A DNA stretch of 36,529 bases from Deltaproteobacteria bacterium (lineage in GTDB: Bacteria; Myxococcota_A; UBA9042; CAIXZC01): the NCBI GenBank assembly GCA_016875215.1, contig VGRX01000013.1, positions 1 to 36,529 on the forward strand, written 5' to 3'. This document shows positions 2,482-36,333 of this stretch, one piece after another (position 1 is the first letter of the stretch; each line of letters begins with the position of its first letter). Below the pieces are notes generated by a model. The model saw only the letters and a list, made by a program, of their open reading frames with translations. It searched no databases and was not told where the DNA came from. A program made the position numbers and the translations under genes.

Positions 2482-2554
2482 CCGCGCAGCCAGCGCCCTG
2501 CCGTCCACCCCAGAGCACCTTCGCTCGGAACTCCTGCCGAAGTCCGTCAGCGAA

Positions 2555-2583
2555 TTGACACACGCACACGTCTTCAGTATTAT
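2555..2583 (+). promoter_or_regulatory. Sigma-70-type promoter for the second Cys-rich lipoprotein
   Basis: TTGACA (2555-2560) and TATTAT (2578-2583) are separated by 17 bp, six of six and five of six matches to the -35 and -10 consensus. The site lies 60 bp upstream of the ATG at 2644, with a GGAGGAAGAG ribosome-binding site between. It implies that the second paralogue is transcribed separately from the first. Confidence 0.7.
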
Positions 2584-2643
2584 TCCGGTCCGAAGTCGAG
2601 GTTCTGTCATCAAGAATGCCTTCGTGGCGGGGAGGAAGAGAAG

Positions 2644-5055: not shown

Positions 5056-6840
5056 AACAACACGCTCGCTTGCGATGACAAGAACGCGTGCACGACGGGT
5101 GACGTCTGCACCAACGGGGCCTGCGTTCCCACGGGCAAGCTCGACTGCGACGACAAGAACCCGTGCACCAACGACGCCTGCGAACCGCTCAAGGGCTGCG
5201 TGTACGTCAACAACACCCTGGCCTGCAACGATTCCAACCTCTGCACGACCGGCGACGTTTGCAGTGCCGGCAAGTGCGTCGGCAAGCCGGTCGTCTGCAA
5301 TGACAACAACGTCTGCACCGACGACTCGTGCGACGCGAAGACCGGCCTGTGTGTCTACGCCCCCAACACCAGCCCCTGCAACGACGGCAACGTGTGCACG
5401 ACCGGCGACGTCTGCTCCGCCGGGAAGTGCGCCGGCAAACCGGTCGTCTGCGACGACAAGAACCCGTGTACGCAGGATTCCTGCGTCTCGCCGGCCGGAT
5501 GCGTGTACGTCAACCTGCCGAACGGGACCAAGTGCGACGACGGCAGCCTGTGCTCGAACAACGACCAGTGCCTGCTGGGCAAGTGCGTCGGGGCGGCGGT
5601 CAACTGCAACGACAACAACGTCTGCACCGACGACTCGTGCGACCCGAAGACCGGCTGCGTCTACAAGAACAACACGGCCCTGTGCAACGACTCGAACGCC
5701 TGCACCACCGGTGACGTGTGTGCGAACGGCAAATGCGCAGGCAAGCCGATCGTGTGCGACGACAAGAACTCGTGCACCAACGACTCGTGCAATCCGGCCA
5801 CCGGCTGCGTCTACCAGGCACTGCCGTGGGGTTCGAAGTGCGACGACGGGAGCGCTTGCACCACCGGTGACCAGTGCCTCTGGACGTTCTGCTTCGGCCA
5901 GTCGCTCAACTGCAACGACAACAACGTCTGTACCAACGACTCCTGCGACCCGAAGACCGGCTGCGTCTACACGAACAACACCAATGCCTGCGATGATGCC
6001 AATGCCTGCACGGGGGCGGACAAGTGTGCGGATGGAAAGTGCTCCGGCACCCCCATCAAGTGCGACGACCTCAATCCCTGCACGGACGACTCATGCGTAC
6101 CGGCAACCGGGTGCAAGTTCGTGAACAACACCGCACCGTGCGACGACGGCAACTCGTGCACGGTCGGCGATGCCTGCTCTGCCGGCACGTGCAAGGCGGG
6201 CACGACCAACCTGTGCACCGGCTGCTCGGCTCAGGAGAAGGGCGGATGCAACGGCTGTGCATGCGAGAAGTGCGTGTGCGCCATGGACCCGACGTGCTGC
6301 ACCGTAGCCTGGACCGCGGATTGCGTGGCGCTGTGCAAGAACGCCTCGTGCCCGCAGACCTGCCAGCTCAACGGCTGCAACACGCTCCCGCAGAAGGGGT
6401 GCGGCGGGTGCGCTTGCGAGAAGGCGGTATGTGCGGCGGACCCGTTCTGCTGCAACGTTGCATGGGACAACATCTGTGCGGGCGAGTGCAAGTCGATCGG
6501 CAACTCGGTGTGCGGCTCGCCGGGCGGGGCCGGATGTGCCACCTCGCTGGCCGGTGAGAAGGGGTGCGGCGGTTGTCCGTGCGAGAAGGCGGTCTGTGCA
6601 GTCGACTCGTTCTGCTGCACCACGGCGTGGGACGCGCTCTGCGTCAGCGAGTGCAAGAACTTTTGTGTGGCCCACTGCCACAAGTCGGGCGGGCAGGGTT
6701 GCCGCGTGCATGCCACCAAGGGGTGCGGCGGCTGTCCGTGCGAGAAGGAAGTCTGCGCCAACGACGCGGCCTGCTGCAACAGCCAGTGGGATGCGTTCTG
6801 CGTCGTGGCCTGCGCCAACCTCGGCTATCTCTGCAAGTAG
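5056..6840 (+). pseudogene. Severed C-terminal half of paralogue 2: CTDC repeats and four WD/CC modules
   Basis: This is the direct in-frame continuation of the 2644 gene after its TAG. All Cys spacings stay intact through the remaining CTDC repeats and four terminal modules (CC..AWTADC, CC..AWDNIC, CC..AWDALC, CC..QWDAFC), ending in YLCK then TAG, as in paralogue 1 (YLCK) and paralogue 3 (YICK). No ATG with a ribosome-binding site occurs at its beginning; the first start-like codon in frame is a GTG at 5200 inside a repeat, without a convincing Shine-Dalgarno. It is therefore unlikely to be an independent gene. It is either the dead half of a recently broken gene, a readthrough product, or evidence of a base-calling error at 5053. 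Read through, the protein would be 1,398 residues. Confidence 0.8.
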
Positions 6841-6852
6841 TATCCGGACCGG

Positions 6853-6884
6853 GCGGAGGGCGGTTTCAGCCGCCCTCCGCTCTT
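6853..6884 (+). terminator. Rho-independent terminator after paralogue 2
   Basis: A perfect 11-bp GC-rich stem (6853-6863 with 6870-6880, six-base loop TTTCAG) is followed by TCTT. It begins 12 bases after the TAG at 6838-6840. The T-run is short, but position and stem strength fit a terminator. That it sits at the end of the downstream half supports 2644-6840 having been one gene. Confidence 0.75.
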
Positions 6885-7004
6885 CCCCTGCACTTTCGCC
6901 CAGGTCATCCGCTTTCCTTGTCGTCCGGACGATTTGGGATTCCCAAATTCACCATCAACTCCAGCGCTACCCCGGCACACTGACCCCGGCAGACTGTTCC
7001 GGAC

Positions 7005-7088
7005 CACCAGATTGGTGCCAGATGCAAGGAGCGACCGAGCCGGCCAAATGAGGCGGGGCTCAAGCCCCGTCGCAGTGAGGCGGCGACG
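7005..7088. repeat. Cluster of short inverted repeats between paralogues 2 and 3
   Basis: Three hairpin-capable palindromes are visible: CACCA-GAT-TGGTG (7005-7017), a nine-pair GC-rich stem with a CA loop (7052-7071, centred on GGGGCT/AGCCCC), and CGTCGC paired with GCGACG (7068-7073 with 7083-7088). The octamer TGAGGCGG occurs twice (7049-7056 and 7076-7083). Function is unknown; they could be REP-like elements or part of a 5' regulatory region. The rest of the 385-bp gap holds only the terminator and the promoter described separately. Confidence 0.5.
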
Positions 7089-7142
7089 AAGCAACGCCGC
7101 AGGTGGCCCGAGATGGTGGTCCGGGGGATTTCGACATCGGCA

Positions 7143-7171
7143 TTGACAGGGGGGGGGCGGATCCGTATAGT
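7143..7171 (+). promoter_or_regulatory. Sigma-70-type promoter with a G9 spacer tract
   Basis: TTGACA (7143-7148) and TATAGT (7166-7171) lie 17 bp apart, 54 bp before the ATG of the third Cys-rich lipoprotein. The first nine spacer bases are all G (7149-7157). Such a homopolymer can slip, and one base gained or lost would move the spacer to 18 or 16 bp. Confidence 0.75.
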
Positions 7172-7225
7172 GCGCCCGCTCTCAGGCGGATTGACACCAG
7201 TGCCGACATGGCAAAGGAGGAGAAC

Positions 7226-10189
7226 ATGAAGCATCTCGTACTTGGGAAGAGGACAATGGCGCTCGTCGGTTTCGCAGCCCTGCTCTTTGCGAGCGGGTGC
7301 TCGGGATCCGGTTCGATATTGACCCCCGAGGACACCGGCGGAGCAGACGAACAGTCGGGCGATGCAGTCATCGGCACCGACAACCAGGTCGAGGAGGATC
7401 TGGGGAAGGAGGATCTGCCTCCCGCCCCCTGCAAGAGCGATGCGGATTGCGACGATTCCAACCTGTGTACCACCGACAAGTGCATTCCGGGCACCGGGTG
7501 CGAGCACCTGAACAACACGGCGCCGTGCGATGACGGCGATGCCTGCACCGTGGACGACGTCTGCGCCGACGGCGTATGCGCAGGAGGGCACGGGCTCGAC
7601 TGCGACGACCTCAACGCCTGCACGGACGATTCGTGCGACGCTGCCTCCGGTTGCATGCACGTCAACAATGCGGCCGGCTGTGAGGACGGCGATGCCTGCA
7701 CGCTCGGAGACACGTGCCAGGACGGCCAGTGCAAGGGCAAGACTCCCCTCGAATGCAAGGACGACAACCCCTGCACCGATGACACCTGCAACCCGGCCAA
7801 GGGGTGCGAATTCCCGTACAACACAGCCGCCTGTGACGACGGCAACGGGTGCACCGTCGACGACGCGTGCAAGGATGGCCTCTGCGTCGGCAAGCAGACT
7901 CCCGATTGCAAGTGCACCACGGACGTCGAGTGCAAGCAGTTCGACGACAATGACCTCTGCAACGGTACCCTCATCTGCGTCGAGCAGCAGTGCGCGATCG
8001 ACGAGACGACGGTCGTCGTTTGCGATAGCGAGAGCACCCCGGCTTGTCATGTGGCCGCATGCGTCCCGGAGACGGGCAAGTGCGAAGACAAGATGGCGGA
8101 TGACGGCGTCGCGTGCGACAACGGCGACAAGTGCACCACGAACGATACCTGCAAGGGAGGGAAGTGCGAAGCCGGCGAGACGGTCACGTGCGACGACGGC
8201 AGCGTCTGCACCGACGATTCCTGCACGCCTGACGAAGGGTGCGTGTTCACGGCCAACAAGGCCGCCTGTGACGATGGAAGCGAATGCACGAAGGACGATG
8301 TCTGCGCCGAGGGGCAGTGCGCCGGCATCCCGATCGAGTGCAACGACGCCAACGGCTGCACGGACGACTCGTGCGATCCGCTCGTCGGCTGCGTGTTCAC
8401 CAACAACTCCTCGGCCTGCAACGACGACAGCTTCTGCACCGAGAACGACGTCTGCCTGGACGGGAAGTGCGGTGGGACCGCGGTCGTCTGCAGCGACGGC
8501 AACGGGTGCACGGATGACACCTGCGACCCCAAGCTCGGATGCGTCTACACGAACAACACGGCCGTCTGCGATGACAAGAACAAGTGTACGGTCGGCGACA
8601 TCTGCGGCGAAGGCGCCTGCCTGGCGGGGGCCCCGGCCGACTGCGACGACAAGAACGTGTGCACGTCCGACACGTGCGTTCCGGAGGCGGGCTGCGTGCA
8701 GGTCAACAACGCCAACGCGTGCGAGGACGGCGACCTGTGCACCACCGGCGACATCTGCAAGGACGGCAAGTGCGGCGCCGGTGCGGCGGTAGTCTGCAAC
8801 GACAACAACCCCTGCACTGCGGACAAGTGCGACCCCAAGATCGGGTGCGTGTTCACTCCGGTGGCGGATGACACCAAGTGCGACGACGGAAACGCCTGCT
8901 CCACCGGGGACAAGTGCAAGGCGGGTGTCTGCGGCGGCGTCGGGCTCAACTGCGACGACAAGAACCCGTGCACGGACGACAAGTGCGACAATCCGCAAGT
9001 GGGCTGCTACCACGTGTACAACACCGCCAAGTGCGACGATGGGAATGCCTGCACCGTGGGTGACATCTGCAGCCAGGGTGTCTGCCAGGCCGGCAAGACC
9101 CCCCTGGAATGCAACGACAAGAACCCCTGCACCAACGACAAGTGCGACCCGGCCACGGGCTGCGTCTTCACGAACAACGGGCTGTTCTGCAATGACGACA
9201 ACGCCTGCACGACGACGGACCAGTGCTCGGGCGGCAAGTGCGTCGGCAAGCCCAAGCTGTGCAACGACCTGAACCTCTGCACGGACGACTCTTGCGATCC
9301 CAAGACCGGATGCCTGTTCGCACCCAATACGCTCGGTTGCGACGACGGCAACGCGTGCACCCTGGCCGACAAGTGTGCGGACGGGCAGTGCAAGGGCGGC
9401 ATGCCGCTGCTCTGCAACGACTCGAATCCGTGCACGGACGACACTTGCGTTCCTGCCACGGGTTGCAAGTTCACCAACAACACCAAGCCGTGCGACGACG
9501 GAAACGTGTGTACCGGCGGCGACGTGTGCAACGGCGGAAGCTGCCTCGCGGGCAAGGTCAACATGTGCAACGGCTGCAACGTCAGCGACAGCAAGGGGTG
9601 CAACGGCTGTGCCTGCGAGAAGTGCGTGTGCGCCATGGATCCCTACTGCTGCGAGGTGAAGTGGGATTCCTCCTGCGTGAGCGAGTGCAAGAGCACCTCC
9701 TGCCCCCAGACCTGCCAGATGAACGGCTGCAACCCGCTTCCGCAAAAGGGGTGCGGCAACTGCGGCTGCCAGGCCTGCGTGTGCGCCGAGGACCCGTTCT
9801 GCTGCAACACGGCGTGGGATTCGCTCTGCGCCAGCGAATGCCAGGAGTGCGGCTCCGCGTGCGGCGCCCCCGGCGGCGCCGGCTGCCAGAATTCCGTCCC
9901 GGGAGAGAAGGGATGCGGCGGCTGCGCTTGCGAGGAGGCCGTCTGTGCGGAGGATCCGTTCTGCTGCAACACGGCGTGGGACAGCATCTGCGTGAACGAG
10001 TGCATCAACGATGCCGTGGCGCACTGCTACAACACCGGCGGCCAGGGGTGCAAGACGCACGAGACGAAGGGCTGCGGCGGCTGCGCCTGCCAGGTCAAGG
10101 TCTGCGCCGCGGAACCGTCCTGCTGCAACACCAAGTGGGATGCCAAGTGCGTCCAGAAGTGCATCGACACCGGCTACATCTGCAAGTAG
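7226..10189 (+). CDS. Giant Cys-rich CTDC-repeat lipoprotein, intact (paralogue 3)
   Basis: I chose the ATG at 7226 because AAAGGAGGAG stands just before it and the next residues form a lipoprotein signal ending in FASGC (Cys25); an in-frame ATG-initiated extension to 7103 would put the signal internally and start upstream of the promoter. The 987-residue product has the same architecture as its neighbour: acidic linker, CTDC-type repeats, the DETTVVVC / CVPETGKC island near residues 230-295, more repeats, then four terminal modules (CC..KWDSSC, CC..AWDSLC, CC..AWDSIC, CC..KWDAKC) and a GYICK ending. It is shorter than the reconstructed second paralogue, so repeat number varies between copies. 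Probably a lipid-anchored, cell-surface disulfide-rich rod. Function unknown; adhesion or matrix binding is only an inference. Confidence 0.9.
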   Translation: MKHLVLGKRTMALVGFAALLFASGCSGSGSILTPEDTGGADEQSGDAVIGTDNQVEEDLGKEDLPPAPCKSDADCDDSNLCTTDKCIPGTGCEHLNNTAPCDDGDACTVDDVCADGVCAGGHGLDCDDLNACTDDSCDAASGCMHVNNAAGCEDGDACTLGDTCQDGQCKGKTPLECKDDNPCTDDTCNPAKGCEFPYNTAACDDGNGCTVDDACKDGLCVGKQTPDCKCTTDVECKQFDDNDLCNGTLICVEQQCAIDETTVVVCDSESTPACHVAACVPETGKCEDKMADDGVACDNGDKCTTNDTCKGGKCEAGETVTCDDGSVCTDDSCTPDEGCVFTANKAACDDGSECTKDDVCAEGQCAGIPIECNDANGCTDDSCDPLVGCVFTNNSSACNDDSFCTENDVCLDGKCGGTAVVCSDGNGCTDDTCDPKLGCVYTNNTAVCDDKNKCTVGDICGEGACLAGAPADCDDKNVCTSDTCVPEAGCVQVNNANACEDGDLCTTGDICKDGKCGAGAAVVCNDNNPCTADKCDPKIGCVFTPVADDTKCDDGNACSTGDKCKAGVCGGVGLNCDDKNPCTDDKCDNPQVGCYHVYNTAKCDDGNACTVGDICSQGVCQAGKTPLECNDKNPCTNDKCDPATGCVFTNNGLFCNDDNACTTTDQCSGGKCVGKPKLCNDLNLCTDDSCDPKTGCLFAPNTLGCDDGNACTLADKCADGQCKGGMPLLCNDSNPCTDDTCVPATGCKFTNNTKPCDDGNVCTGGDVCNGGSCLAGKVNMCNGCNVSDSKGCNGCACEKCVCAMDPYCCEVKWDSSCVSECKSTSCPQTCQMNGCNPLPQKGCGNCGCQACVCAEDPFCCNTAWDSLCASECQECGSACGAPGGAGCQNSVPGEKGCGGCACEEAVCAEDPFCCNTAWDSICVNECINDAVAHCYNTGGQGCKTHETKGCGGCACQVKVCAAEPSCCNTKWDAKCVQKCIDTGYICK

Positions 10190-27500: not shown

Positions 27501-28243
27501 TCACGGTGGACAAGTTCGGCCGCATCTGGATGGGACACTACAGCAACTACGGCATCTCCATGTACGACCCGAAGAACGGGCAATGGAAGTGGATCACGCA
27601 GAACCTGGGCGGATACTGCCCGCGCGGCATGGCCGGATCCTCGAACGGGTTCATGTACTCCGGCCTGGGGTGCGGCGGAACGTACGTTGCCAAGGTCAAC
27701 CTGGAAACCTATGCCGTCAACCTGGTCAACATCTCGCCGTGCACCACACCCATCGGCGTGGCCCTGGACTCGGGAGCCAATCTGTGGGCGGTCTGCTACA
27801 GCTCATCCTCTGCCGGCAAGGTCAACACGGCCAACGACCAGTTCATCGGCAACTACCCGGTCGGCTCCAACCCGTACACCTACTCGGACATGACCGGCTA
27901 CGCAGCAAAGAACTACACCGCGCCGCAGGGGTACTACCAGCACATCATTCCGGGTGCGCCGAGCGGGATTACCACGTGGACCAGCCTCAAGGTGGACGTG
28001 ACCTACCAGGGGGCCAGCTACCTGAAGATCCGGCTGCGGGCGGCGGACACGGTCTCGTCACTGGCCGGAGCGGAGTGGAAGGGACCGTTCGGACCCTTCC
28101 CGCCCAACGTCTTCCCCATGGACCTGACCGCGATCCCGGGCATGGTCGGCAAGTACATGCAGGTCGAGGTGATCCTCGTCGCAGATGACCAGGGCAACTC
28201 GGCAATCCTCAAGGGCTTCTACGTCCAATACCACACCAAGTAG
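24596..28243 (+). CDS. Lipoprotein with eight MopE-type Cys/Asp motifs and a C-terminal beta-propeller
   Basis: The second ATG (24596) is preferred over 24590 because AGGGGG lies at a proper distance only for it. The 1,215-residue product has a lipoprotein signal (GIACGC, Cys19 or Cys21), an acidic linker, and Cys-rich EGF-like segments (about 80-245). Eight copies of the CDG.DN.CNGKVDEG motif (PF11617, named after the copper-binding protein MopE) lie between about 247 and 725, with a thrombospondin-type-3-like DNCPLDANPNQLDTDNDG stretch near 290. Residues about 740-1100 carry propeller blades (GLVLDQDGIIWVSGRG, GITVDKFGRIWMGHYS) like virginiamycin-B-lyase or SMP-30/NHL proteins. A terminal beta-sandwich of about 100 residues follows. 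The Asp/Asn-rich repeats probably bind calcium. No catalytic residues are evident; a surface scaffold is the best guess. Confidence 0.88.
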   Translation: MRTIRFGMAILIALWGIACGCSSSPSQAQLVPDGKDDGKDEDASGRTDQEPDVGEQDFGKPTPFDALAEYDASENVPIGQKCNENEDCGFGYCIEAPQGKICTHTCIEDCPPGFVCKGTSLGGPDLEFLCIPTYFDLCAPCTTDKECGDDDDLCLPVGGEGTFCGLACVGAEDCPEGYSCNSVVGAGGVSMKQCLPLTGSCSCTLDNVGEKRGCLLENLYGSCPGEMVCQGAGGWSSCNAPEPEPEKCNGLDDDCDGKEDDGFADSDKDSLADCVDPDDDNDNVTDEADNCPLDANPNQLDTDNDGLGNVCDDDDDGDGDPDELDCAPLEPLAHHNAKEVCDGVDNNCNKQVDEGFADVDMDGMANCVDPDDDNDGDLDDTDCDPLEAKVFHGAKEACDGLDNDCNGKVDEGFADLDGDGVANCVDVDSDGDADPDPEDCAPFNPLIHHKAAELCDGIDNNCNIQVDEGWPDFDLDGLADCMDPDDDNDQDPDDLDCAPLDSTMHHAANEKCDGIDNNCNGKVDEGYPNFDGDGEADCIDNDDDNDGDPDIVDCNPVNSAVHHGAGEKCDGLDNDCNLQVDEPGATGCTVFYKDKDDDGWGMSNKFLCQCGPASDFTATKPGDCDDSTWSINPGGTEVCNNQDDDCDGVKDNAGALGCENHYVDKDGDGFGSGQPSCVCWPTPPYVTKNGGDCNENSAAINPKVPELCDGVDNNCNGKVDEGVGSSCGTCDPSCHQVNVGPKGDEAFTMDADNSDGLAMTPDGFLELSEEQVKLAFIWIANSAENTVSKLDTDTGKEVGRYYTCADPSRTAVDLYSDVWVACRGDGGVTKIVAYEKNCVDKNKDGVIQTAKDGNGDGKIQGGEMLAKGQDECVRFITYPGGGCQRAAGVDKENNAWIGEWNGSTLRRLKADDGAVLQSIGISCNPYGLVLDQDGIIWVSGRGCDKLIRVDPKTNAVQHIGPPSGNLYGITVDKFGRIWMGHYSNYGISMYDPKNGQWKWITQNLGGYCPRGMAGSSNGFMYSGLGCGGTYVAKVNLETYAVNLVNISPCTTPIGVALDSGANLWAVCYSSSSAGKVNTANDQFIGNYPVGSNPYTYSDMTGYAAKNYTAPQGYYQHIIPGAPSGITTWTSLKVDVTYQGASYLKIRLRAADTVSSLAGAEWKGPFGPFPPNVFPMDLTAIPGMVGKYMQVEVILVADDQGNSAILKGFYVQYHTK

Positions 28244-28889
28244 GGGGCGGTCCACGTCCCCCGACCGCGGCCACAGGCGCACACCAAACCTCGGCATTGT
28301 CAAACAGCGGGGGGTGGTTTCATGTCCGGGGTGGGGAGCCAAGCTCGTTCCTGTACGGACACGCCTTTTCCTCTTGCTTCACTGTGCCCAGCAAAGCGGG
28401 ACACTTGCGCGCATGATGTCACACCCCTGTCACAGTCAACGACATCTCCAAGATTCCGGAGCGTTGCGATTCCGGCTGGTCTGCATCCGACACCCGCCGT
28501 GACATGTCCCACCCGATGTCACACCCCCAAAGCTGCGGCCTCCAGCGTGCGCTTGCTGCTAAGGACGAAGCCTTGTCCGACACTGAGTTACGCCGCATGC
28601 CTTCATGCAAGTTCTCAAGTCATCCATGGCCAGGGCCGGCGCGGACGCCTTGTCCTTGTCACAGGCAGCGGCCCAAACGGCGATCGCTGACCGGAAAACG
28701 ACGCCGATCTGCTCACGAATCAGCGGAGAACCGCATGCTGCCGACGGGAAAACGCGGTCCCAGAGCGCCCGCGGCCGCGGGGTGAGTCTGGCAGTTTACT
28801 TGGAGTCCGAGGGCGAACCTGCGCTTTTTTGACCTGAAAGAGTCGACTTGGCACGCTTCTTTCCATGTTAATGGGGGTATGCGTGTGCT
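28244..28889 (+). other. 646-bp intergenic region with repeated TGTCACA motifs
   Basis: No convincing gene was found on either strand; short ORFs here lack ribosome-binding sites and protein-like composition. The region holds four TGTCACA heptamers, a 13-bp direct repeat and two copies of ATTCCGG 17 bp apart near 28455. A TGGCAC string at 28849 looks like the -24 half of a sigma-54 promoter, but the required GC at -12 is absent. It marks the change from the highly GC-biased lipoprotein gene to the sigma/metzincin cassette. Confidence 0.6.
28415..28663 (+). repeat. Repeated TGTCACA motif, including a 13-bp direct repeat 100 bp apart
   Basis: GATGTCACACCCC occurs at 28415-28427 and again at 28515-28527, exactly 100 bp apart. 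Its core TGTCACA occurs four times on the plus strand: 28417, 28428, 28517 and 28657. The first two are 11 bp apart, about one helical turn. Spacing and location upstream of a sigma-like gene suggest protein-binding sites, but no binder is known. Confidence 0.45.
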
Positions 28890-30152
28890 ATGCTCGATGG
28901 TGCTGGAGTGAGGGCGAAGGTGCACTACGGCTCGGCATTGACCGAAAGGGAAAGACCGACAGCGCTTGGCTGCTCCCTGGCAGTTGATGCCGCTCCTGTT
29001 CATCCAGCAACAGCGGAGGCCGTTGGTGTCGGGGCAGCTCCGGTCATCCCGGCGAGCGGGAGCGCTGCCCGCTTGGACGCACTTCCAGAAGACGGCTTCT
29101 CAGCCAGCTGCGAGGACCATGCGCGGGCCCGTGAAGTTCCGAAGTCCAATCACGGGGGGCGGGCGGGGGAAGGAAGACTCGAACTCCAGGATGTGCTGAC
29201 ATCGCTCGCCACCGGCAAACTATCTTCCCATGAGTTCACCGTTCTCTGGGAGTTCCTCTTGCGCACTGCCCGGAATCTGTGCCACTCGGGGGCCCGCATG
29301 GGGCCGGACGGATGGGCCGCATGCGATCAGGCTGAGGACATGGCGGCGGAGGCGCTTCTGCGCCTCCTCACCTGTGAGACCTTGCCAATGACGCTGGCGC
29401 CGGGCCAGGCTGCCCCCTACCTGAGGACTACGGTTCGGAATCTCGCTGCCAGTTGGACCCGGGGCCGGAACGGCGACCCCGGAGACGCAGTCAGGTCCGA
29501 TCCTTCTTTCGCAGAGGCGCTCGGCCATGCCTTGCCGGGATCGGCAGAGGAACTCGCATGCTGCCGGGAGTTGGTGGACTCGGCTCTTCGATGCCTTGAG
29601 CAGTCTGGCCGCACGGGCCCCCGCCTCGTCCTGGTAGCCAGACTGCAGTTCATGGAGGGACGGACCGATCTCGAGATCGCCGAACTGCCAGCGTACGAAG
29701 CACTCCTCATCAGGCGAAGGAATGGCGAGACTGACCTGGCGCAGAACGTCCGGCAAGACGTCAGACGAGCTCGGCTACGCCTGATCGAGATCATCGGTCT
29801 CCTGCTCCGCCCCTCGATATCAGGAAGCAGGAAGCAGGAAGCAGGAAGCAGGAAGCATGGGCTCCTCGGCGACCTCATCATCTTCCCGGGCAGGAGAAGC
29901 GACGGTGACGAAGCCACGCTGCAGATTTCCTGTCACGAATTGGCCACGAATTGCGTCCTTGAAGGATGTGAGGTAGGCGAAGTGAAGTTCCTGGAGCGAC
30001 GAGGACATGAGGCTTTCGACAGTATGAACATGGGGGGTGTCCGGCCCGCTGACTTGCATGAATCCTGGGTTGGAATGCCGATCAGCCTCGGCATGAGCGC
30101 CGGACCTGGGAAATGCCGATCAGCCCCGGTCTCCCGCCCAATTCGACCTTGA
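28890..30152 (+). CDS. ECF-sigma-like protein with repeat-bearing C-terminal tail
   Basis: The 420-residue frame is assigned by its middle part. Residues about 95-215 look like sigma-70 regions 1.2-2 (DQAEDMAAEALLRLLT, then APYLRTTVRNLAASW), and about 225-310 look like region 4 (LVLVARLQFMEGRTDLEIAEL ... VRQDVRRARLRLIEII), with an insertion inside the helix-turn-helix. The first 90 residues are low-complexity and the ATG at 28890 has no clear Shine-Dalgarno; a GTG at 29193 would start just before the conserved part. After residue 311 a heptanucleotide repeat encodes GSRKQEA units and the last 98 residues resemble nothing, so the true C-terminus may be earlier. It lies 31 bp upstream of the secreted-protein genes and probably controls them. 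Sigma assignment is moderate. Confidence 0.55.
   Translation: MLDGAGVRAKVHYGSALTERERPTALGCSLAVDAAPVHPATAEAVGVGAAPVIPASGSAARLDALPEDGFSASCEDHARAREVPKSNHGGRAGEGRLELQDVLTSLATGKLSSHEFTVLWEFLLRTARNLCHSGARMGPDGWAACDQAEDMAAEALLRLLTCETLPMTLAPGQAAPYLRTTVRNLAASWTRGRNGDPGDAVRSDPSFAEALGHALPGSAEELACCRELVDSALRCLEQSGRTGPRLVLVARLQFMEGRTDLEIAELPAYEALLIRRRNGETDLAQNVRQDVRRARLRLIEIIGLLLRPSISGSRKQEAGSRKHGLLGDLIIFPGRRSDGDEATLQISCHELATNCVLEGCEVGEVKFLERRGHEAFDSMNMGGVRPADLHESWVGMPISLGMSAGPGKCRSAPVSRPIRP
29821..29857 (+). repeat. Five perfect copies of the heptamer CAGGAAG inside the sigma-like gene
   Basis: CAGGAAG is repeated five times without error (29821-29855) and followed by a partial CA. It lies directly after the region-4-like segment. 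Because seven is not a multiple of three, gain or loss of a unit shifts the frame. Reading on by eye, the three frames end after about 98, 39 or 17 further residues. Confidence 0.9.
30074..30125 (+). promoter_or_regulatory. 14-bp direct repeat with a palindrome upstream of the secreted-protein operon
   Basis: AATGCCGATCAGCC occurs at 30074-30087 and 30112-30125, 38 bp apart. The first copy is part of a perfect inverted repeat ATGCCGA-N6-TCGGCAT (30075-30094); the second copy keeps only part of the right arm. It lies 60-110 bp before the GTG at 30184, inside the dubious tail of the sigma-like frame. Operator or leader hairpin are both possible. Confidence 0.45.
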
Positions 30153-30183
30153 GGAGAGGAACGAACTCATTGGAGGGTACCGC

Positions 30184-30828
30184 GTGACTAGGAAATTGGC
30201 AGTGATAGCGTTTGTCAGCCTGCTCGTAGTTCATGGACCTGCCGAGCGACAGGTCCAAGCTTGCTGGGGCGAGGACATGTCGCTTGGGGGCCAGCTTTCA
30301 AAGGAGGCTGTCGTGCCTCTCCTGCTCCAGGTGGCATCCGTCGAGTACGAAACGCCGCCCAGCGGCACTATCCCCATTACTACAGTGACATTCAGCTTGC
30401 TGTCCTGGGCCTCTGGAATGCCGCTGTGCTATGGGTCCATGTCCTATCGTGGAGGGGCAACGGCGGACGGAAGGTTCATATCCGTTTCCACGTCACCAGA
30501 AATGCATGTTGGAGAGTTCTTGGTCGCACTCTGCAAGCCCGGGCCAGTTCCTCACACATGGGCCCCTGTCCTCGGTGCGGCCAGTATCCTCGAGGTACTC
30601 CCTGGCGAAGCGCCCGACCAAGACGGTTCACCCCTCACCGTTGAGAAGGCCCTGGTTTTCGTGGAAGCGGCGCACGGAGTGGTCCAGATTTTTCCACCGG
30701 GAGATCTGACCCTGGTGAACTCGAATGAGACCTACTTGACGCCGAACTGGGCGAAACCACCGATTGTGGCACTAGCTGATTTGGCGAATCTGCTTCCCGT
30801 CCCGGACCTCATGGAGGTATGCAAATGA
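30184..30828 (+). CDS. Secreted protein of unknown function, coupled to the metzincin gene
   Basis: It starts with GTG at 30184 after GGAGGGTACC and encodes 214 residues with a signal peptide (KLAVIAFVSLLVVHGPA, cleavage near QVQA before CWGED). The mature part is beta-rich, has four cysteines and contains DGRFISVSTSPEMHVGEFLVALCKPG, which looks like a beta-sandwich strand pair; I recognise no family. Its TGA overlaps the ATG of the next gene as ATGA, and the GGAGGT for that gene lies inside its 3' end, so the two are translationally coupled. By position it could be a partner, chaperone or inhibitor of the protease. Codon choice is less GC-biased than in the genes before 28 kb. Confidence 0.75.
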   Translation: MTRKLAVIAFVSLLVVHGPAERQVQACWGEDMSLGGQLSKEAVVPLLLQVASVEYETPPSGTIPITTVTFSLLSWASGMPLCYGSMSYRGGATADGRFISVSTSPEMHVGEFLVALCKPGPVPHTWAPVLGAASILEVLPGEAPDQDGSPLTVEKALVFVEAAHGVVQIFPPGDLTLVNSNETYLTPNWAKPPIVALADLANLLPVPDLMEVCK

Positions 30829-32795
30829 CGGCCAGAACAGGGCTTCTCGGTGCGTTGCTGCCATTCACTCTCGTCCTTCTGACCTCACCGGTAGAGGGCT
30901 ATGCCTGGAATGGAAAGGAAGACCACTGCGATACGCCGGGAGGCTTCGCTCGCTGGGGCTATGTGGACAGTATCGAGGTACAACTTGACCCTGGTGTAGA
31001 CAACCCTCAACACCTGGATCCGGTCGAGTGGTCTTCCCACCAACTGTCCATTATCAGGGCCGCTCTGGCGACATTCAATCACTTGCCCACTTCCCGCATA
31101 CACATCCACATATCTTCCACACCTTGCGATGGCCCGAGCGAAGAACCGGAATATGGCACGATTTGCTTCTGGCAGGTCAAGAGCGACAACAAGAATGGCG
31201 AATCGTGGTCAGACTACGATGATGCGTCTTGCACTATTGATAGGGGGTGGGTCAGGATCGACAGCACAGGAGCAGAAGATGATGCGCAGCTCTACCATCA
31301 CACAGTGCACGAGTTCTCGCATGTTTTTGGCCTCAAACACACAAACAACCCCTATGACTGGATGTACAAGTACTGGAATGCCACATATGGTGGGTCAAAT
31401 ATTCACTTGGGCATGACGCGCGATGTACGCAATGCCTATAGTTATCTATATCCCGTTGGCCACAACTTCTTCTTTGGCCACTTTGACCAACGTAGCAACG
31501 CGGGGGGGGACTACCCGTATCGCCAGTGGTATACGGATCTCATGGTTCGGGATGCTCAGGGGACTAGTGACACCATCCCTTGGTATCTAACTGTCCTGGG
31601 CAAGAGCGCCGGAGGCGGGTACGCCCTATTTGCACTCGGGGAGTACAGTGACGATGGGGACTTCGGGAACCAGAATACGCTCCCCTATGTGGTGGGGGAC
31701 TTCACGGGATCTGGTGGGGACGACATTGCTGCCGGATTGTGTTCATCTCCTGACCCTGGGGACGGAGCTGGTGACACAGTTGCGTGGTACGTGATGGAGT
31801 CAACCACAGGCAATTCAGTTGGCTTCGACACGACTGCGGTTTGGGATTCGGACTTCGGGAACGCAGAGGATGCTGACATGTACTTCGCTGCCAACATGAC
31901 CGGAAGTCAGGATGATTGCGACGATTTGGTGCTGATTCGAAATCTGTCCGCGTACGACTGCAACGCGACTACAGGCGAGTGCCAAGTGCGCCTGTATGTT
32001 CTGCCGTCCATTGATACGACAAACCCTGCAGACGGGGAGTGTGACCAGTTTGGAAGCGAGTTCTATCTCGACATAGACGTTACGGATCGTTCCGCGACCA
32101 CCGCCTGGCCTTGGGTTGTTGGTGACTTCTATACGGCCGATGGCCTTGGTTGCTCCGATATCGCATTTGGGAAAACGTCCCAGAGCGATCCGCTTCAGAT
32201 GAACTGGTATGTCGTGAAGAGCAAGGATACCAACGCTAATGGGAGGTGCGATGCGCTCGAATTGATTGCGAACGCGTGGACCTCGGATGCAGGTGATATG
32301 GGACAAATTCTCTGGTTTGCTGGAGATTTTGGGGCACCAAATGGGTCGTCTGGTCAGGATCTGGTTCGGGTCAAGGTCCTAGATAGTGCTGTGCAGTGGT
32401 ATGTGATGTACAGCAATGGGTCGTCGGCGTTTACGAATGGTCACACGCCGGTGAGTGATATGTTCATTGGGAATGACGAGCACTTTCGCGCGAAGATCTT
32501 CGCTGTTGGTAACATCAGGGGGACCCAGTCGGACATTGTTGATGATTTTGTGGCGCTTGTGGATAACGAGGCCAACGATGATCGGCTTAGATGGTACTGT
32601 GCGGCAAATAATGGTGGCTCCCCCACACCGACATGGACGGTGTACAGTACATTGACGCCCTCCACGAAGGCTTGCTGGGATCAGGCCACTGATTGGGACG
32701 ACTGGAACTCAAGCAAGGACAATGGAGGGGATGACATAAGGGAGGATTGGTGGTGCAAAACCTGCGATGTTTGGTACAACGAGACGAAACCGTAG
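30825..32795 (+). CDS. Secreted metzincin-type zinc metalloprotease with FG-GAP-like repeats
   Basis: The ATG at 30825 is chosen over 30819 because GGAGGT lies six bases ahead and the ATGA overlap with the upstream stop is typical. The 656-residue product has a signal peptide (about 1-25) and a catalytic domain with HEFSHVFGLKH (His162, Glu163, His166, His172), the HExxHxxGxxH zinc motif of metzincins, followed by a Met (about 180) in YDWMY that may be the Met-turn. This fits a matrixin-like peptidase. Residues about 210-620 hold repeated GDF-G--DI segments (VVGDFTGSGGDDIAAG, VVGDFYTADGLGCSDIAFG, FAGDFGAPNGSSGQDLV) like FG-GAP/VCBS propeller blades. No cysteine-switch propeptide is evident. 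Many codons end in A or T, unlike neighbours outside this cassette. Confidence 0.85.
   Translation: MTARTGLLGALLPFTLVLLTSPVEGYAWNGKEDHCDTPGGFARWGYVDSIEVQLDPGVDNPQHLDPVEWSSHQLSIIRAALATFNHLPTSRIHIHISSTPCDGPSEEPEYGTICFWQVKSDNKNGESWSDYDDASCTIDRGWVRIDSTGAEDDAQLYHHTVHEFSHVFGLKHTNNPYDWMYKYWNATYGGSNIHLGMTRDVRNAYSYLYPVGHNFFFGHFDQRSNAGGDYPYRQWYTDLMVRDAQGTSDTIPWYLTVLGKSAGGGYALFALGEYSDDGDFGNQNTLPYVVGDFTGSGGDDIAAGLCSSPDPGDGAGDTVAWYVMESTTGNSVGFDTTAVWDSDFGNAEDADMYFAANMTGSQDDCDDLVLIRNLSAYDCNATTGECQVRLYVLPSIDTTNPADGECDQFGSEFYLDIDVTDRSATTAWPWVVGDFYTADGLGCSDIAFGKTSQSDPLQMNWYVVKSKDTNANGRCDALELIANAWTSDAGDMGQILWFAGDFGAPNGSSGQDLVRVKVLDSAVQWYVMYSNGSSAFTNGHTPVSDMFIGNDEHFRAKIFAVGNIRGTQSDIVDDFVALVDNEANDDRLRWYCAANNGGSPTPTWTVYSTLTPSTKACWDQATDWDDWNSSKDNGGDDIREDWWCKTCDVWYNETKP
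31502..31509 (+). repeat. G8 homopolymer in the metzincin coding sequence
   Basis: Eight consecutive Gs encode Ala-Gly-Gly-Asp just downstream of the catalytic domain. Slippage by one base would cut off the FG-GAP-like part while leaving the zinc domain intact. Confidence 0.8.
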
Positions 32796-32951
32796 AGTCC
32801 TCAGAGGGGGCGTGCGCACTGGTGTCACGCGGGCGTGTTGCAGTCGGCCGTAGCGGCATTGCGAGGGCGGCTCGGGGTGCGGCTTCGGGGCGGTGGCTTG
32901 GGCCACTCTGTGGGATGCGTTGCGGCCGTTGCTTGTGACTGGGGGGGGCAA

Positions 32952-33941
32952 ATGTGGATGGGTCGGAGATCCGTTGGCCTTCTGGTAGGAGTTGGAATTG
33001 CGCTCGGATTTGCCCCGGATGCCGCATCTTCTTGCGAATGGCTTCCTCCCTCGGATGTCCTAGTGCTGCCCTCGGATGGGGCCGAGGAGGTTCCAATTGA
33101 CGCGCGCATCTGGGTGGCGGGTGGCGGCGGGAGCGAGGTTGTCGTCGTGCACGAGGGCGAGGAGATCGGGGGGACCAAGCATGGCAGCGGGTGGTGGAGT
33201 TTCGGGTTGGGAGAGATGTTTCCCTACTCCACGTACGAGTTCGTCGTGAACATATGTTTCGCTGCTGGGTGCCCGATCGTGTACGAATATGGACCTTTCG
33301 CGTTCACGACTTCGGCGGAGGAGGCAAGCTTGCCGGCGGAAGTCTCCGTGGTGGCCGTTGTCATGGGAGCGCCTGGAAGCGACGCGCTGCAAGGAGCAGT
33401 CCCGGCCTCGTGTGAGGAGCAGGTACTGGATCAGGATTGTTTCGATGAGGTTCCTGTGTTGATAGCAGGCTTTGCGGTGGAGCCGAACCTGTCCGCAGCT
33501 GTGTTTTCTGCTTGGCCGGTAGGGGCGGATGATAGTGAAATGCTGCTGAGTTCGGCAGAGTGCCCGATTCTGTTCGCTGGGCCGTCTGCAGACATTTCTG
33601 GCAGTTGCTTCTGGCTGGTGGCGTATAGTCTTGCGGGCGAGGCTTCGCAGCCAGCCAAGGCCTGCCTCGATGGTGGAGCTGAAGCTGAAACAAGTGGCTT
33701 GGCCGACAACATGAACGATGCTCGGTCAAGTCAGGCCGAGGACAAGTGGAGCGGACCTGTCGACGCTACGGGGTATGGTTCGGGTGCGGGGCGGGGGTGC
33801 TCCACAGCGTTATGTGTGCACTCCGAGGCGCGCTTGGGTTGCGTCGGAGTTCTGGTGGTGCTGCTGCTTGTCGGGGCTGTGGTGTGCCGTAGTTCGTCGC
33901 CAAGTGTGCGTTCCTGCGGAGGCGCTCCCGCACGGTCATGA
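32952..33941 (+). CDS. Exported Ig-like protein with C-terminal membrane tail
   Basis: I chose the ATG at 32952, preceded by a run of eight Gs (32941-32948) that can act as Shine-Dalgarno; the open frame extends to 32835 but those residues are Arg/Gly-rich and not signal-like. The 329-residue product starts with a signal peptide (RRSVGLLVGVGIALGFAPDAASS). An Ig-like segment follows, opening with LPSDGAEEVPIDARIWV, a common start of bacterial Ig-like (Big_5/SbsA) domains, and ending in YGPFAFTT. A second beta-rich part of about 150 residues with paired cysteines comes next. The C-terminus has a Cys-containing Gly/Ser stretch, a hydrophobic helix (GVLVVLLLVGAVVC) and an Arg/Ser tail, resembling a sorting or anchoring signal. 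The last 176 bases overlap the convergent Cys-rich gene. Confidence 0.72.
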   Translation: MWMGRRSVGLLVGVGIALGFAPDAASSCEWLPPSDVLVLPSDGAEEVPIDARIWVAGGGGSEVVVVHEGEEIGGTKHGSGWWSFGLGEMFPYSTYEFVVNICFAAGCPIVYEYGPFAFTTSAEEASLPAEVSVVAVVMGAPGSDALQGAVPASCEEQVLDQDCFDEVPVLIAGFAVEPNLSAAVFSAWPVGADDSEMLLSSAECPILFAGPSADISGSCFWLVAYSLAGEASQPAKACLDGGAEAETSGLADNMNDARSSQAEDKWSGPVDATGYGSGAGRGCSTALCVHSEARLGCVGVLVVLLLVGAVVCRSSSPSVRSCGGAPARS

Positions 33942-36333
33942 CACGGAGGCGCCGCGGAGGATGGACATGGCAAGGTTGTGAAGGTGCGTCGGCCGGGAAC
34001 GCCCGAAGTCTCACCATGACGCCTTGTTGTTTCGCCTTCCGGGACGAATGGGGAAGCACTTTCGACGCTGAGCGCAGCAGCACCACGACGGCCAGCAGCA
34101 TGCAGATCAGCACTGTGGCCATGCCGCTGCTGCCGCTCCGGCCGAGGGAGCATCCGTTCGATGCCTTGTCCTTGCCGCCGATGTTCGGAACGCAATCTCC
34201 GTCCTTGAAGGTGTAACCCGTGGGACAGGACTTGCCCGGCTTCACGTCCTCTTCAATCACGTCGGAAGTGGTGCCGCCGGCATCCGGCCACGGGGCGTCC
34301 GGGGGCAGGCACTGTCCACCCTTGCAGACGAGCACGGCCCCGCAGACGCCGCAGCTCCCGCCGCAGCCGTCATCCCCGCACTGCACGCCGGCGCAGTTGG
34401 GCTTGCAGCCCGCGCTGCACAGCCCGCTCGAATCGCACGAGTAGCCGACAGGACACTGGCCGCAGGTCCCTCCGCACCCGTTGTCGCCACATTCCTTGCC
34501 CGAGCAGTTGGGCATGCACTCCGGTCCGCACATCCCCTGAGCGCCGCAGAAGAGCCCGGCCGGACAGGTCCCGCACGAACCGCCGCAACCGTCCGAACCG
34601 CACTGCTTGCCGGAACAGGAGGGCATGCAATCGCCGACGCACTTCCCCTGCGCATCGCAGAACATCCCCGCCGGGCACTTCCCGCACTGTCCCCCGCAAC
34701 CGTCCGGGCCACAGTCCTTGCCACTGCATGCCGGCATGCACCCCGGGATGCACACGCCCGACCCATGGCATCCCATCCCCGCCGGACAGGTTCCGCACTG
34801 ACCACCGCAACCATCAGGTCCGCACTGCTTGCCCGAGCAGTCCGGGAGACAGGTCCCGGAGCACTTCCCTGAAGCATTGCAGCTCGTCCCCTCGGGGCAG
34901 GTGCCGCAGCTTCCCCCGCATCCGTCCGGGCCGCACTGCTTCGCCTGGCACGAGGGAGAACAGGTATCGCTGCACGTGCCCGCCGCACTGCAGTAGTAGC
35001 CAGGCTGACAGGAACCGCACGAGCCGCCGCAGCCATCCGATCCGCATTGCTTCCCCGCACACTTGGGCGTGCAGTTGAAAACGCACTTGCCCTGGTCGCT
35101 GCACGAATACCCGCCAGGACACGAGCCGCAGCTTCCGCCACACCCGTCCGGGCCGCATTGCTTCCCCATGAGCCAGCAATCCGGGTCGCACGGCTCGACG
35201 CACTTCCCCGTCGCGTCGCATTCCTCGTTCCACGAGCAGTAACCGCAGCTCCCGCCGCACCCGTCCGGGCCGCACTCCTTGCCAGTGCAGGCCGGGGTAC
35301 AGTCGAAAACGCACTGTCCGGCGTCGGTGCATGCGTACCCCTGCTTGCAGGTCCCGCAAGTGCCGCCACAGCCGTCGGGGCCGCACTGCTTGCCCCAGCA
35401 ATTGTTCGCGCAGCTCTGACAGTAGCCCCCTTCGGTGCACTGGTATCCCGCCTTGCACACGCCGCACGTCCCGCCGCAATCGTCCGGGCCGCACTGCTTG
35501 TAGTAGCAAGGTGCCTTGCAGTCCTTGCAACTGCCGGTGTCGGTGCAGTACCAGCCCGCCTTGCACTCGCCGCACGTCCCGCCGCAATCATCCGGGCCGC
35601 ACTGCTTGTAGTAGCACGAATCCTTGCAGTTCTTGCAGGAGCCGTCGCTGCAGTAGTAGCCCGCCTTGCATTCGCCGCACGTCCCGCTACAGTCGTCAGG
35701 GCCGCACTGGTTCCACAGGCACGGTGCCTTGCAATCCTTGCAGCTCCCGGTCTCGGTGCAGTACCAGCCCGCCTTGCACGTCCCGCAGACACCGCCGCAC
35801 GGGTTGTCCCCGCACTGCTTGCCCGAGCAGGCCCACGAGCAGCTCGAGCAGTAGCCATCGTCGCAGTAGTAACCGGCTTTGCACTCTCCGCAGGTTCCGC
35901 CACAATCATCGGGCCCGCAGTTGTTGTTCCAGCACGGTGCCTTGCAGTCCTTGCAACTCCCCTTGGCATCACAGTAGTAGCCCGCCTTGCAGGTTCCGCA
36001 AGTCCCCCCGCACGGATTGGGTCCGCACTGCTTCCCGAGGCACGCCCACGAGCAGGGCGAGCACGAGCCCCACTCGTCGCAGTATTCGCCGGCCGGACAC
36101 TCGCCGCAGGTCCCCCCGCACGGATGTGCACCGCACTCCTTGCCCCCACAGGCGAAGTCGCAGCTCTCGCACCACCCGTTCGATGTACAATACTCGGCTG
36201 CAGGGCACTTCCCGCAACTCCCGCCACATCCGTCGTCGCCGCACTCCTTGCCGCCACAATACGGGTAGCACTCCGCCAGCACAGAAGCCGGAAACAGGAA
36301 GACTAGCATTGCAGCAATTGCGACAACTTTCAT
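33766..36333 (-). CDS. 18-repeat Cys-rich surface protein with MYXO-CTERM-like signal and extra tail
   Basis: The ATG at 36333 starts a signal peptide (KVVAIAAMLVFLFPASVLA) followed by 18 tandem units of 35-39 residues of the form C...C.GK.CGPDGCGG.CG.C..GY.C...G.C, about six to eight Cys each. Repeats 4, 6, 7 and 8 share a KAPC.....CGPDDC variant, so they probably arose by local duplication. A Pro/Asp linker then leads to SNGCSLGRSGSSGMATVLICMLLAVVVLLRSASK in outline: a Gly-Cys-Ser, a spacer, a hydrophobic helix and basic residues, matching the layout of MYXO-CTERM sorting signals. Oddly, 98 further residues follow the helix before the TAG at 33768-33766, giving 855 in total and a 176-base overlap with the convergent gene. 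Function unknown; a disulfide-rich rod at the cell surface is inferred. Confidence 0.85.
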   Translation of the reverse strand: MKVVAIAAMLVFLFPASVLAECYPYCGGKECGDDGCGGSCGKCPAAEYCTSNGWCESCDFACGGKECGAHPCGGTCGECPAGEYCDEWGSCSPCSWACLGKQCGPNPCGGTCGTCKAGYYCDAKGSCKDCKAPCWNNNCGPDDCGGTCGECKAGYYCDDGYCSSCSWACSGKQCGDNPCGGVCGTCKAGWYCTETGSCKDCKAPCLWNQCGPDDCSGTCGECKAGYYCSDGSCKNCKDSCYYKQCGPDDCGGTCGECKAGWYCTDTGSCKDCKAPCYYKQCGPDDCGGTCGVCKAGYQCTEGGYCQSCANNCWGKQCGPDGCGGTCGTCKQGYACTDAGQCVFDCTPACTGKECGPDGCGGSCGYCSWNEECDATGKCVEPCDPDCWLMGKQCGPDGCGGSCGSCPGGYSCSDQGKCVFNCTPKCAGKQCGSDGCGGSCGSCQPGYYCSAAGTCSDTCSPSCQAKQCGPDGCGGSCGTCPEGTSCNASGKCSGTCLPDCSGKQCGPDGCGGQCGTCPAGMGCHGSGVCIPGCMPACSGKDCGPDGCGGQCGKCPAGMFCDAQGKCVGDCMPSCSGKQCGSDGCGGSCGTCPAGLFCGAQGMCGPECMPNCSGKECGDNGCGGTCGQCPVGYSCDSSGLCSAGCKPNCAGVQCGDDGCGGSCGVCGAVLVCKGGQCLPPDAPWPDAGGTTSDVIEEDVKPGKSCPTGYTFKDGDCVPNIGGKDKASNGCSLGRSGSSGMATVLICMLLAVVVLLRSASKVLPHSSRKAKQQGVMVRLRAFPADAPSQPCHVHPPRRLRVMTVRERLRRNAHLATNYGTPQPRQAAAPPELRRNPSAPRSAHITLWSTPAPHPNHTP

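Follow-up and report, generated by a model that had tools for sequence, protein, structure and literature searches.

A small exported protein and its coupled matrixin in a deltaproteobacterium, a probable divergent case of a widespread bacterial gene pair with a predicted TIMP-like partner

In Listeria monocytogenes, the secreted metzincin of the Mtz-Tim system adjoins the gene for a TIMP-like exported protein; the cell-wall phenotypes are attributed to this partner, either by itself or together with the protease, and pairs of the Mtz-Tim type are said to recur in Gram-positive bacteria (PMC8235301). Similarly, in Tannerella forsythia, small exported proteins, the potempins, are encoded directly before secreted KLIKK proteases, one of which is the matrix metallopeptidase karilysin, and they are stated to inhibit these proteases (PMC7296668, PMC4404884). 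A third study places the origin of the animal system of TIMPs and matrix metalloproteinases (MMPs) in the eumetazoan radiation (PMC10755359). Here we describe a gene pair at 30184-32795 of a 36,529-nucleotide stretch of DNA (the window; contig VGRX01000013.1 of the Deltaproteobacteria bacterium assembly GCA_016875215.1). The finding is the pair itself, which is widespread, unnamed and directly testable. We consider it fairly probable that the window holds a divergent instance of it, in which the small exported protein, with an OB fold of the TIMP/netrin type, would be encoded before a coupled secreted matrixin and would most likely hold the enzyme latent or confined.

Three open reading frames (ORFs) follow one another on the + strand of the window. 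The first (28890-30152, 420 amino acids) has a sigma-like core at about 29319-29687 (residues 144-266) and a tail without a known domain. After a gap of 31 bp, a GTG at 30184 starts the ORF of the small exported protein (30184-30828, 214 amino acids), our candidate for a divergent TIMP-fold partner, and the third ORF (30819-32795, 658 amino acids) encodes the secreted matrixin, of family M10. The last two are joined by an ATGA overlap, in which the matrixin ATG at 30825-30827 overlaps the TGA stop at 30826-30828; an extra in-frame ATG lies at 30819. A first-pass annotation of the window had described the ORFs, their spacing and the overlap correctly, and had suggested that they could form a self-contained, signal-induced cassette in which the protease comes with a coupled partner or inhibitor of its own.

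The exported HExxHxxGxxH protease of that annotation was confirmed as a matrixin. The zinc motif HEFSHVFGLKH lies at 31308-31340 and is followed by a DWMY Met-turn, recognized by eye, and the Pfam M10 model PF00413 matched the protein with 26.4 bits (E 7.4e-6), above its cut-off of 24. A profile of the paired matrixins described below found it with an E value of 4.3e-7 over residues 31-227 of the frame. Repeats of the VxGDF..D type were seen by eye in its C-terminal part, and a PDB sequence search with the metzincin gave nothing useful. The same genome has 12 M10 matches, 8 of them above the cut-off, and three other matrixins in it (on contigs C2, C89 and C21) have clear members of the partner family directly upstream. 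On contig C89 of this genome (G000; loci L182 and L184), a partner, a matrixin and a second matrixin stand in a row with ATGA-type overlaps.

The small protein carries a signal peptide with a cleavage site between VQA and C27, as judged by eye, and has cysteines at residues 27, 82, 117 and 213. The hydrophobic stretch, directly behind which a lipobox would sit, is separated from the VQAC by about a dozen residues, again by eye. Pfam and NCBIfam scans gave it no named domain. A search of 377 genomes of the phylum returned 22 rows besides the protein itself, with E values from 0.003 to 0.047, in 20 genomes including its own. One of these noise-level rows, a match at E 0.04 to locus L108 in a genome of the window's class, was picked by eye from 12 rows read, for its exported look and before its neighbor was known; the next gene then proved to encode a matrixin.

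Used as a query, the L108 protein had relatives in 231 of the 377 phylum genomes. Thirty loci were fetched, and in 21 of them the zinc motif occurs on the strand of the small protein, downstream in 19 and upstream in 2, as compared to 2 of 101 other loci with the motif on either strand, a control that excludes six loci overlapping the window, the seed L108, and L100. Another 41 loci came from named genomes, mostly of Myxococcales, Myxococcota, Deltaproteobacteria or Acidobacteria, and here the motif lies 300-1500 bp downstream in 34. The resulting 71 loci reduce to 63 distinct small proteins, and 51 of these are encoded just upstream of a same-strand matrixin, 47 as judged by the motif and 4 by profile (L115, L116, L130, L155). 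A start codon lies at exactly -4 in 36 of the 47 motif-paired loci. In one further member, L144 of Archangium lansinium, the family domain is fused to the matrixin (M10 E 8.8e-9); three have a matrixin upstream instead (L127, L132, L170), no matrixin was found near seven (L113, L120, L122, L123, L128, L135, L176), and at L166 the DNA ends 173 bp downstream of the small protein. The fused Archangium protein (L144:4013-5380) is a single ORF of 456 amino acids whose hydrophobic, arginine-rich C-terminus looks, by eye, like a sorting signal. Alignments and profiles used subsets of these members: alignment A1 left L132 out of 30, alignment A4 took 35 of the 41 named loci (without L144, L154, L173, L175, L176 and L179), and the 60-member profile left out L132, L144, L176, L180 and 7 near-copies.

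An AlphaFold2 model of one family member, L143, with the mature start chosen by eye and 35 sequences, reached a pLDDT (predicted local distance difference test) of 95.3 and a pTM (predicted template modeling score) of 0.89. Foldseek placed agrin NtA first (E 3.7e-4), followed by TIMP-1 and TIMP-2, mostly in MMP complexes, and VIA-align matched the model to N-TIMP-3 with a Z score of 11.5 (118 residues, 2.7 A) and to N-TIMP-1 with one of 11.4. In this alignment, both the model and N-TIMP-3 start at their residue 1. Lower VIA-align rows held the netrin-type (NTR) domain of PCOLCE and chains of complement C3, C4 and C5, whose C-terminal domain we take to be of the NTR type. The modeled member has a predicted OB barrel of the TIMP/netrin type, which the partner family probably shares. 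Taken with the pairing, this predicted fold suggests that the family pairs are probably a protease and a TIMP-like cognate partner, the latter perhaps an inhibitor. At the family level, where a predicted TIMP fold is mostly ATGA-coupled before matrixins, the first-pass idea of a protease with a coupled partner or inhibitor gained support.

The window small protein is probably a divergent member of this family. The window pair has the family's gene order and ATGA overlap, and its zinc motif lies at +479 after the stop, within the range of 458-656 seen in 46 of the 47 motif-paired loci. The best pairwise score of the small protein, with the L108 protein itself (L110), was reached by none of 300 shuffles, although L110 had been chosen through that very match. 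Animal TIMPs have a zinc-binding Cys1 at the mature N-terminus, and Cys27 stands directly behind the likely signal-peptidase site, in the same place. The conserved order, overlap and spacing, together with the L110 score, argue against the alternative of an unrelated exported protein encoded by chance before a matrixin. We regard this alternative as doubtful; it draws on the lack of a significant family-profile score, on the four cysteines, and on the fact that, besides L108, the search of 377 genomes gave only unexplained noise-level rows.

Several results weigh against the family assignment and against the comparison with TIMPs. The L108-query search of the phylum genomes did not find the window protein. 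Its match to the family is marginal: in single tests, the 30-member profile gave it 2.7 bits (domain E 0.0045), and at least 6 of 5000 shuffles did better, while the 60-member profile gave it 1.7-2.2 bits (domain E 0.0092), with at least 12 of 5000 shuffles above it. An hhalign comparison with the family gave P 0.0058 and a probability of 6%, summed pairwise scores were reached by 6 of 300 shuffles, and the score with the member on contig C2 of the same genome was reached by 55 of 300. Two family profiles did not find TIMPs by sequence in the PDB. Moreover, a TIMP in the strict sense has a mature N-terminal Cys1, a Cys-x-Cys motif and conserved disulfides, and most members lack the N-terminal cysteine; among the 29 members in which a crude cleavage rule could place the mature start, 17 have no cysteine at all in the mature part, as compared to four cysteines and a possible Cys27 start in the window protein. 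Pfam scans of 29 members gave PF03146 (NtA) as the model matched by most, weakly and in only 3 of them (best E 0.037), and one member matches DUF3969 (E 1.8e-4) better than any matches NtA; NCBIfam gave scattered single matches. Finally, the fetched members were the best-scoring ones, so weaker members may be paired less often.

For the function of the pair, we propose that partner and matrixin would be made by coupled translation and both exported, and that the mature N-terminus of the partner would enter the active-site cleft, as that of TIMPs does. The partner would then keep the matrixin latent or confined until it is cleaved, diluted or displaced. The window small protein would, we infer, have the TIMP fold, bind the neighboring matrixin and inhibit it by binding. 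By analogy, the published Tannerella and Listeria cases point the same way. A different role, as a folding or secretion helper resembling a propeptide, as a matrixin substrate, or as a subunit that targets the matrixin, seems rather unlikely to us. It is favored by the Archangium fusion, in which the family domain sits at the matrixin N-terminus, the place of a propeptide, and by the Listeria study, in which the TIMP-like partner is released through cleavage by the metzincin (PMC8235301); these two observations leave room for a propeptide, helper or substrate role. Inhibition is favored instead by the predicted TIMP fold, in which the assumed mature N-terminus coincides with TIMP residue 1, and by the Tannerella small proteins encoded directly before proteases, which are stated to be specific inhibitors (PMC7296668).

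The described systems differ from the family in several respects. In Listeria, the TIMP-like gene comes after the metzincin, its product is a lipoprotein, control is of the CI/Cro kind and the fold comes from Phyre2 (PMC8235301), whereas in the Myxococcota and Acidobacteria records described here the partner gene lies before that of the matrixin and in most cases overlaps it in the ATGA manner. The potempins are predicted lipoproteins without shared sequence and their proteases have KLIKK ends; the likeness considered here is one of gene order, export and stated inhibition. With the animal TIMP-MMP system, the family shares its predicted fold, a matrixin as partner and the place of the N-terminus; in contrast, most of the bacterial members counted are without cysteine, and they have one domain and a gene coupled to that of the enzyme. 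In the literature searched, most subscription papers lying outside the search, nothing was found on the partner family in Myxococcota or Acidobacteria.

The ORF at 28890-30152, which the first-pass annotation had called ECF (extracytoplasmic function) sigma-like, deserved that name only in part. It scored far under curated cut-offs, with 18.4 bits against the NCBIfam SigE family, whose cut-off is 141.55, with no sigma domain in the Pfam scan, and without appearing among the 27 TIGR02937 (sigma70-ECF) matches that its own genome gave at E <= 0.01. With an ECF profile built from 17 of those 27 matches, however, it scored 11.1 bits over residues 144-266, above its reversal and 2000 shuffles and with the order of the sigma regions kept. 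AlphaFold2 prediction of residues 79-420, made without an alignment, gave a low pLDDT of 35.8, and a PDB sequence search with the sigma core gave nothing useful. No homologue was found in 52 genomes of the window's class or in the named-genome collection, which may omit the window's own genome; the sigma core gave short matches in 18 other genomes among the 377 of the phylum (E 6.6e-4 to 0.01). The protein resembles ECF sigma factors with C-terminal extensions in its sigma-like core, its extra C-terminal part and the lack of a recognized anti-sigma factor, and differs from them in its scores under curated cut-offs and its tail without a known domain. As the annotation had noted, no anti-sigma factor is visible: the Pfam scan of six ORFs recognized none, no search aimed at anti-sigma factors having been made.

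The region upstream of this ORF, absent from the first-pass annotation, is related to a second locus. About 490 bp 5' of the sigma-like ORF resemble contig C313 of the same genome, with a local score of 75 as compared to 32 or less in 500 shuffles, and C313 is the only other place in the genome that resembles the region at E <= 0.01. Four TGTCACA sequences, candidate activator sites, lie on the + strand at 28417, 28428, 28517 and 28657 (28417-28663) and account for four of the five in the window, both strands counted. As tandem pairs, TGTCACA sequences are limited to 3 places in the 5.9-Mb genome, which belong to two loci, the window and C313, and a control pattern gave 0; a TGTCACA regulon was rejected on this account, with only two loci in the genome. 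The sigma-54 consensus is TGGCACG-N4-TTGC, and a candidate sigma-54-like box, TGGCACG-N4-TTTC, lies at 28849-28863 on the + strand, with one mismatch in the -12 GC; the C313 copy, TGGCACGCGATTTGC, fits the consensus. The TTGGCACG box and the TGTCACA sites are common to both loci. The annotation had suggested a 14-bp repeat and palindrome at 30074-30125 as the natural control site, and an 18-nt direct near-repeat is indeed present at 30074-30129 on the + strand (copies at 30074-30091 and 30112-30129, 94% identical); it is not evident in the aligned C313 leader, and the region upstream of the sigma-like gene, with its shared repeats and box, is the better candidate for a control region. A search of 28200-33900 for RNA elements gave a single match to a known element, far under its gathering score.

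On contig C313, a 54-bp block lies within about 80 bp downstream of the box and precedes the gene for a Cys-rich exported protein, with no sigma gene between. In the window, the same block (29997-30050, + strand, 41 of 54 positions identical) lies in the last part of the sigma-like ORF. This arrangement indicates that a sigma gene was either inserted or lost between promoter and leader. The differences within the block fall at codon positions 1, 2 and 3 in 1, 7 and 5 cases, and all 8 changed codons are nonsynonymous, which argues against a conserved protein tail, so that the tail as a conserved domain is unsupported. The opposite candidate, a wholly non-coding tail, is weakened by codon usage, which in 29860-29976 favors the ORF frame; farther on, in 29977-30152, this frame is favored by the host table and not by the cluster table. 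The Cys-rich exported protein gene of C313 (L036) lies near genes that resemble istA and istB of IS21 by eye.

A perfect 7-bp tandem repeat of 5.3 copies, which the first-pass annotation did not mention, lies inside the sigma-like ORF at 29821-29857 (+ strand), behind the sigma4-like part. With other copy numbers, the ORF would end at 29908 or 29976 rather than at 30152, and slippage in the repeat could switch the regulator tail. Phase variation among three C-terminal tails is an unlikely explanation in our view: the perfect array and the alternative stops speak for it, whereas the evidence comes from one genome, and codon usage just behind the repeat (29860-29976) favors the present frame.

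The cassette proposed at first, in which the sigma-like protein would act at a site in 30074-30129 to drive transcription of the pair, is improbable. In its favor are the 31-bp spacing, the sigma-like core and a + strand with no terminator-like site in 28200-33800; against it stand the related C313 leader, behind which an exported protein gene lies and no sigma gene, and searches in which no second trio of sigma factor, partner and protease was found. As a recurrent unit it gained no support from an ECF-profile screen of 77 loci, in which no ECF match lay directly upstream of a pair on its strand. Since this screen passed over the window's own regulator, it would also miss other sigma genes as divergent. 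It found ECF genes downstream of the pair in 8 of the 41 named loci, at 2.5-3 kb in seven Acidobacteria (L149:7472-8209 and the corresponding places in L151, L153, L158, L160, L164 and L167) and at 0.7 kb in Archangium, and an ECF gene upstream of the pair on the other strand in L132. The sigma arrangement appears to be private to this genome. The sigma-like gene looks like a private addition to the pair, since a copy of the promoter precedes a gene without it, a frame-shifting 7-bp repeat lies in its ORF, and the trio was not found elsewhere. In this genome, what precedes the proposed TIMP-like-partner/matrixin pair is a promoter region that carries TGTCACA sites and a sigma-54-like box, followed by the sigma-like gene.

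Elsewhere in the window, two ORFs encode long exported-looking proteins with Cys-rich repeats, at 1-10189 on the + strand and at 33766-36333 on the - strand, the latter without a Pfam match. Their repeats are of the types CxGKxCGxDGCGGxCGxC and DDGNxCTxDxC.

Should the pairs prove to be protease and inhibitor, a function would be gained for a large bacterial family that no Pfam or NCBIfam model fits (29 members scanned), and many secreted bacterial matrixins would gain a cognate regulator. Tentatively, and as a possibility to which we give limited weight, pairs of a protease and a TIMP-fold inhibitor might be old, common and translation-coupled across Myxococcota and Acidobacteriota, as the bacterial counterpart or source of the metazoan TIMP-MMP system, with the window protein chelating zinc through its Cys1. 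If the partners do inhibit their proteases, the origin of the TIMP-MMP system would become testable with bacterial proteins.

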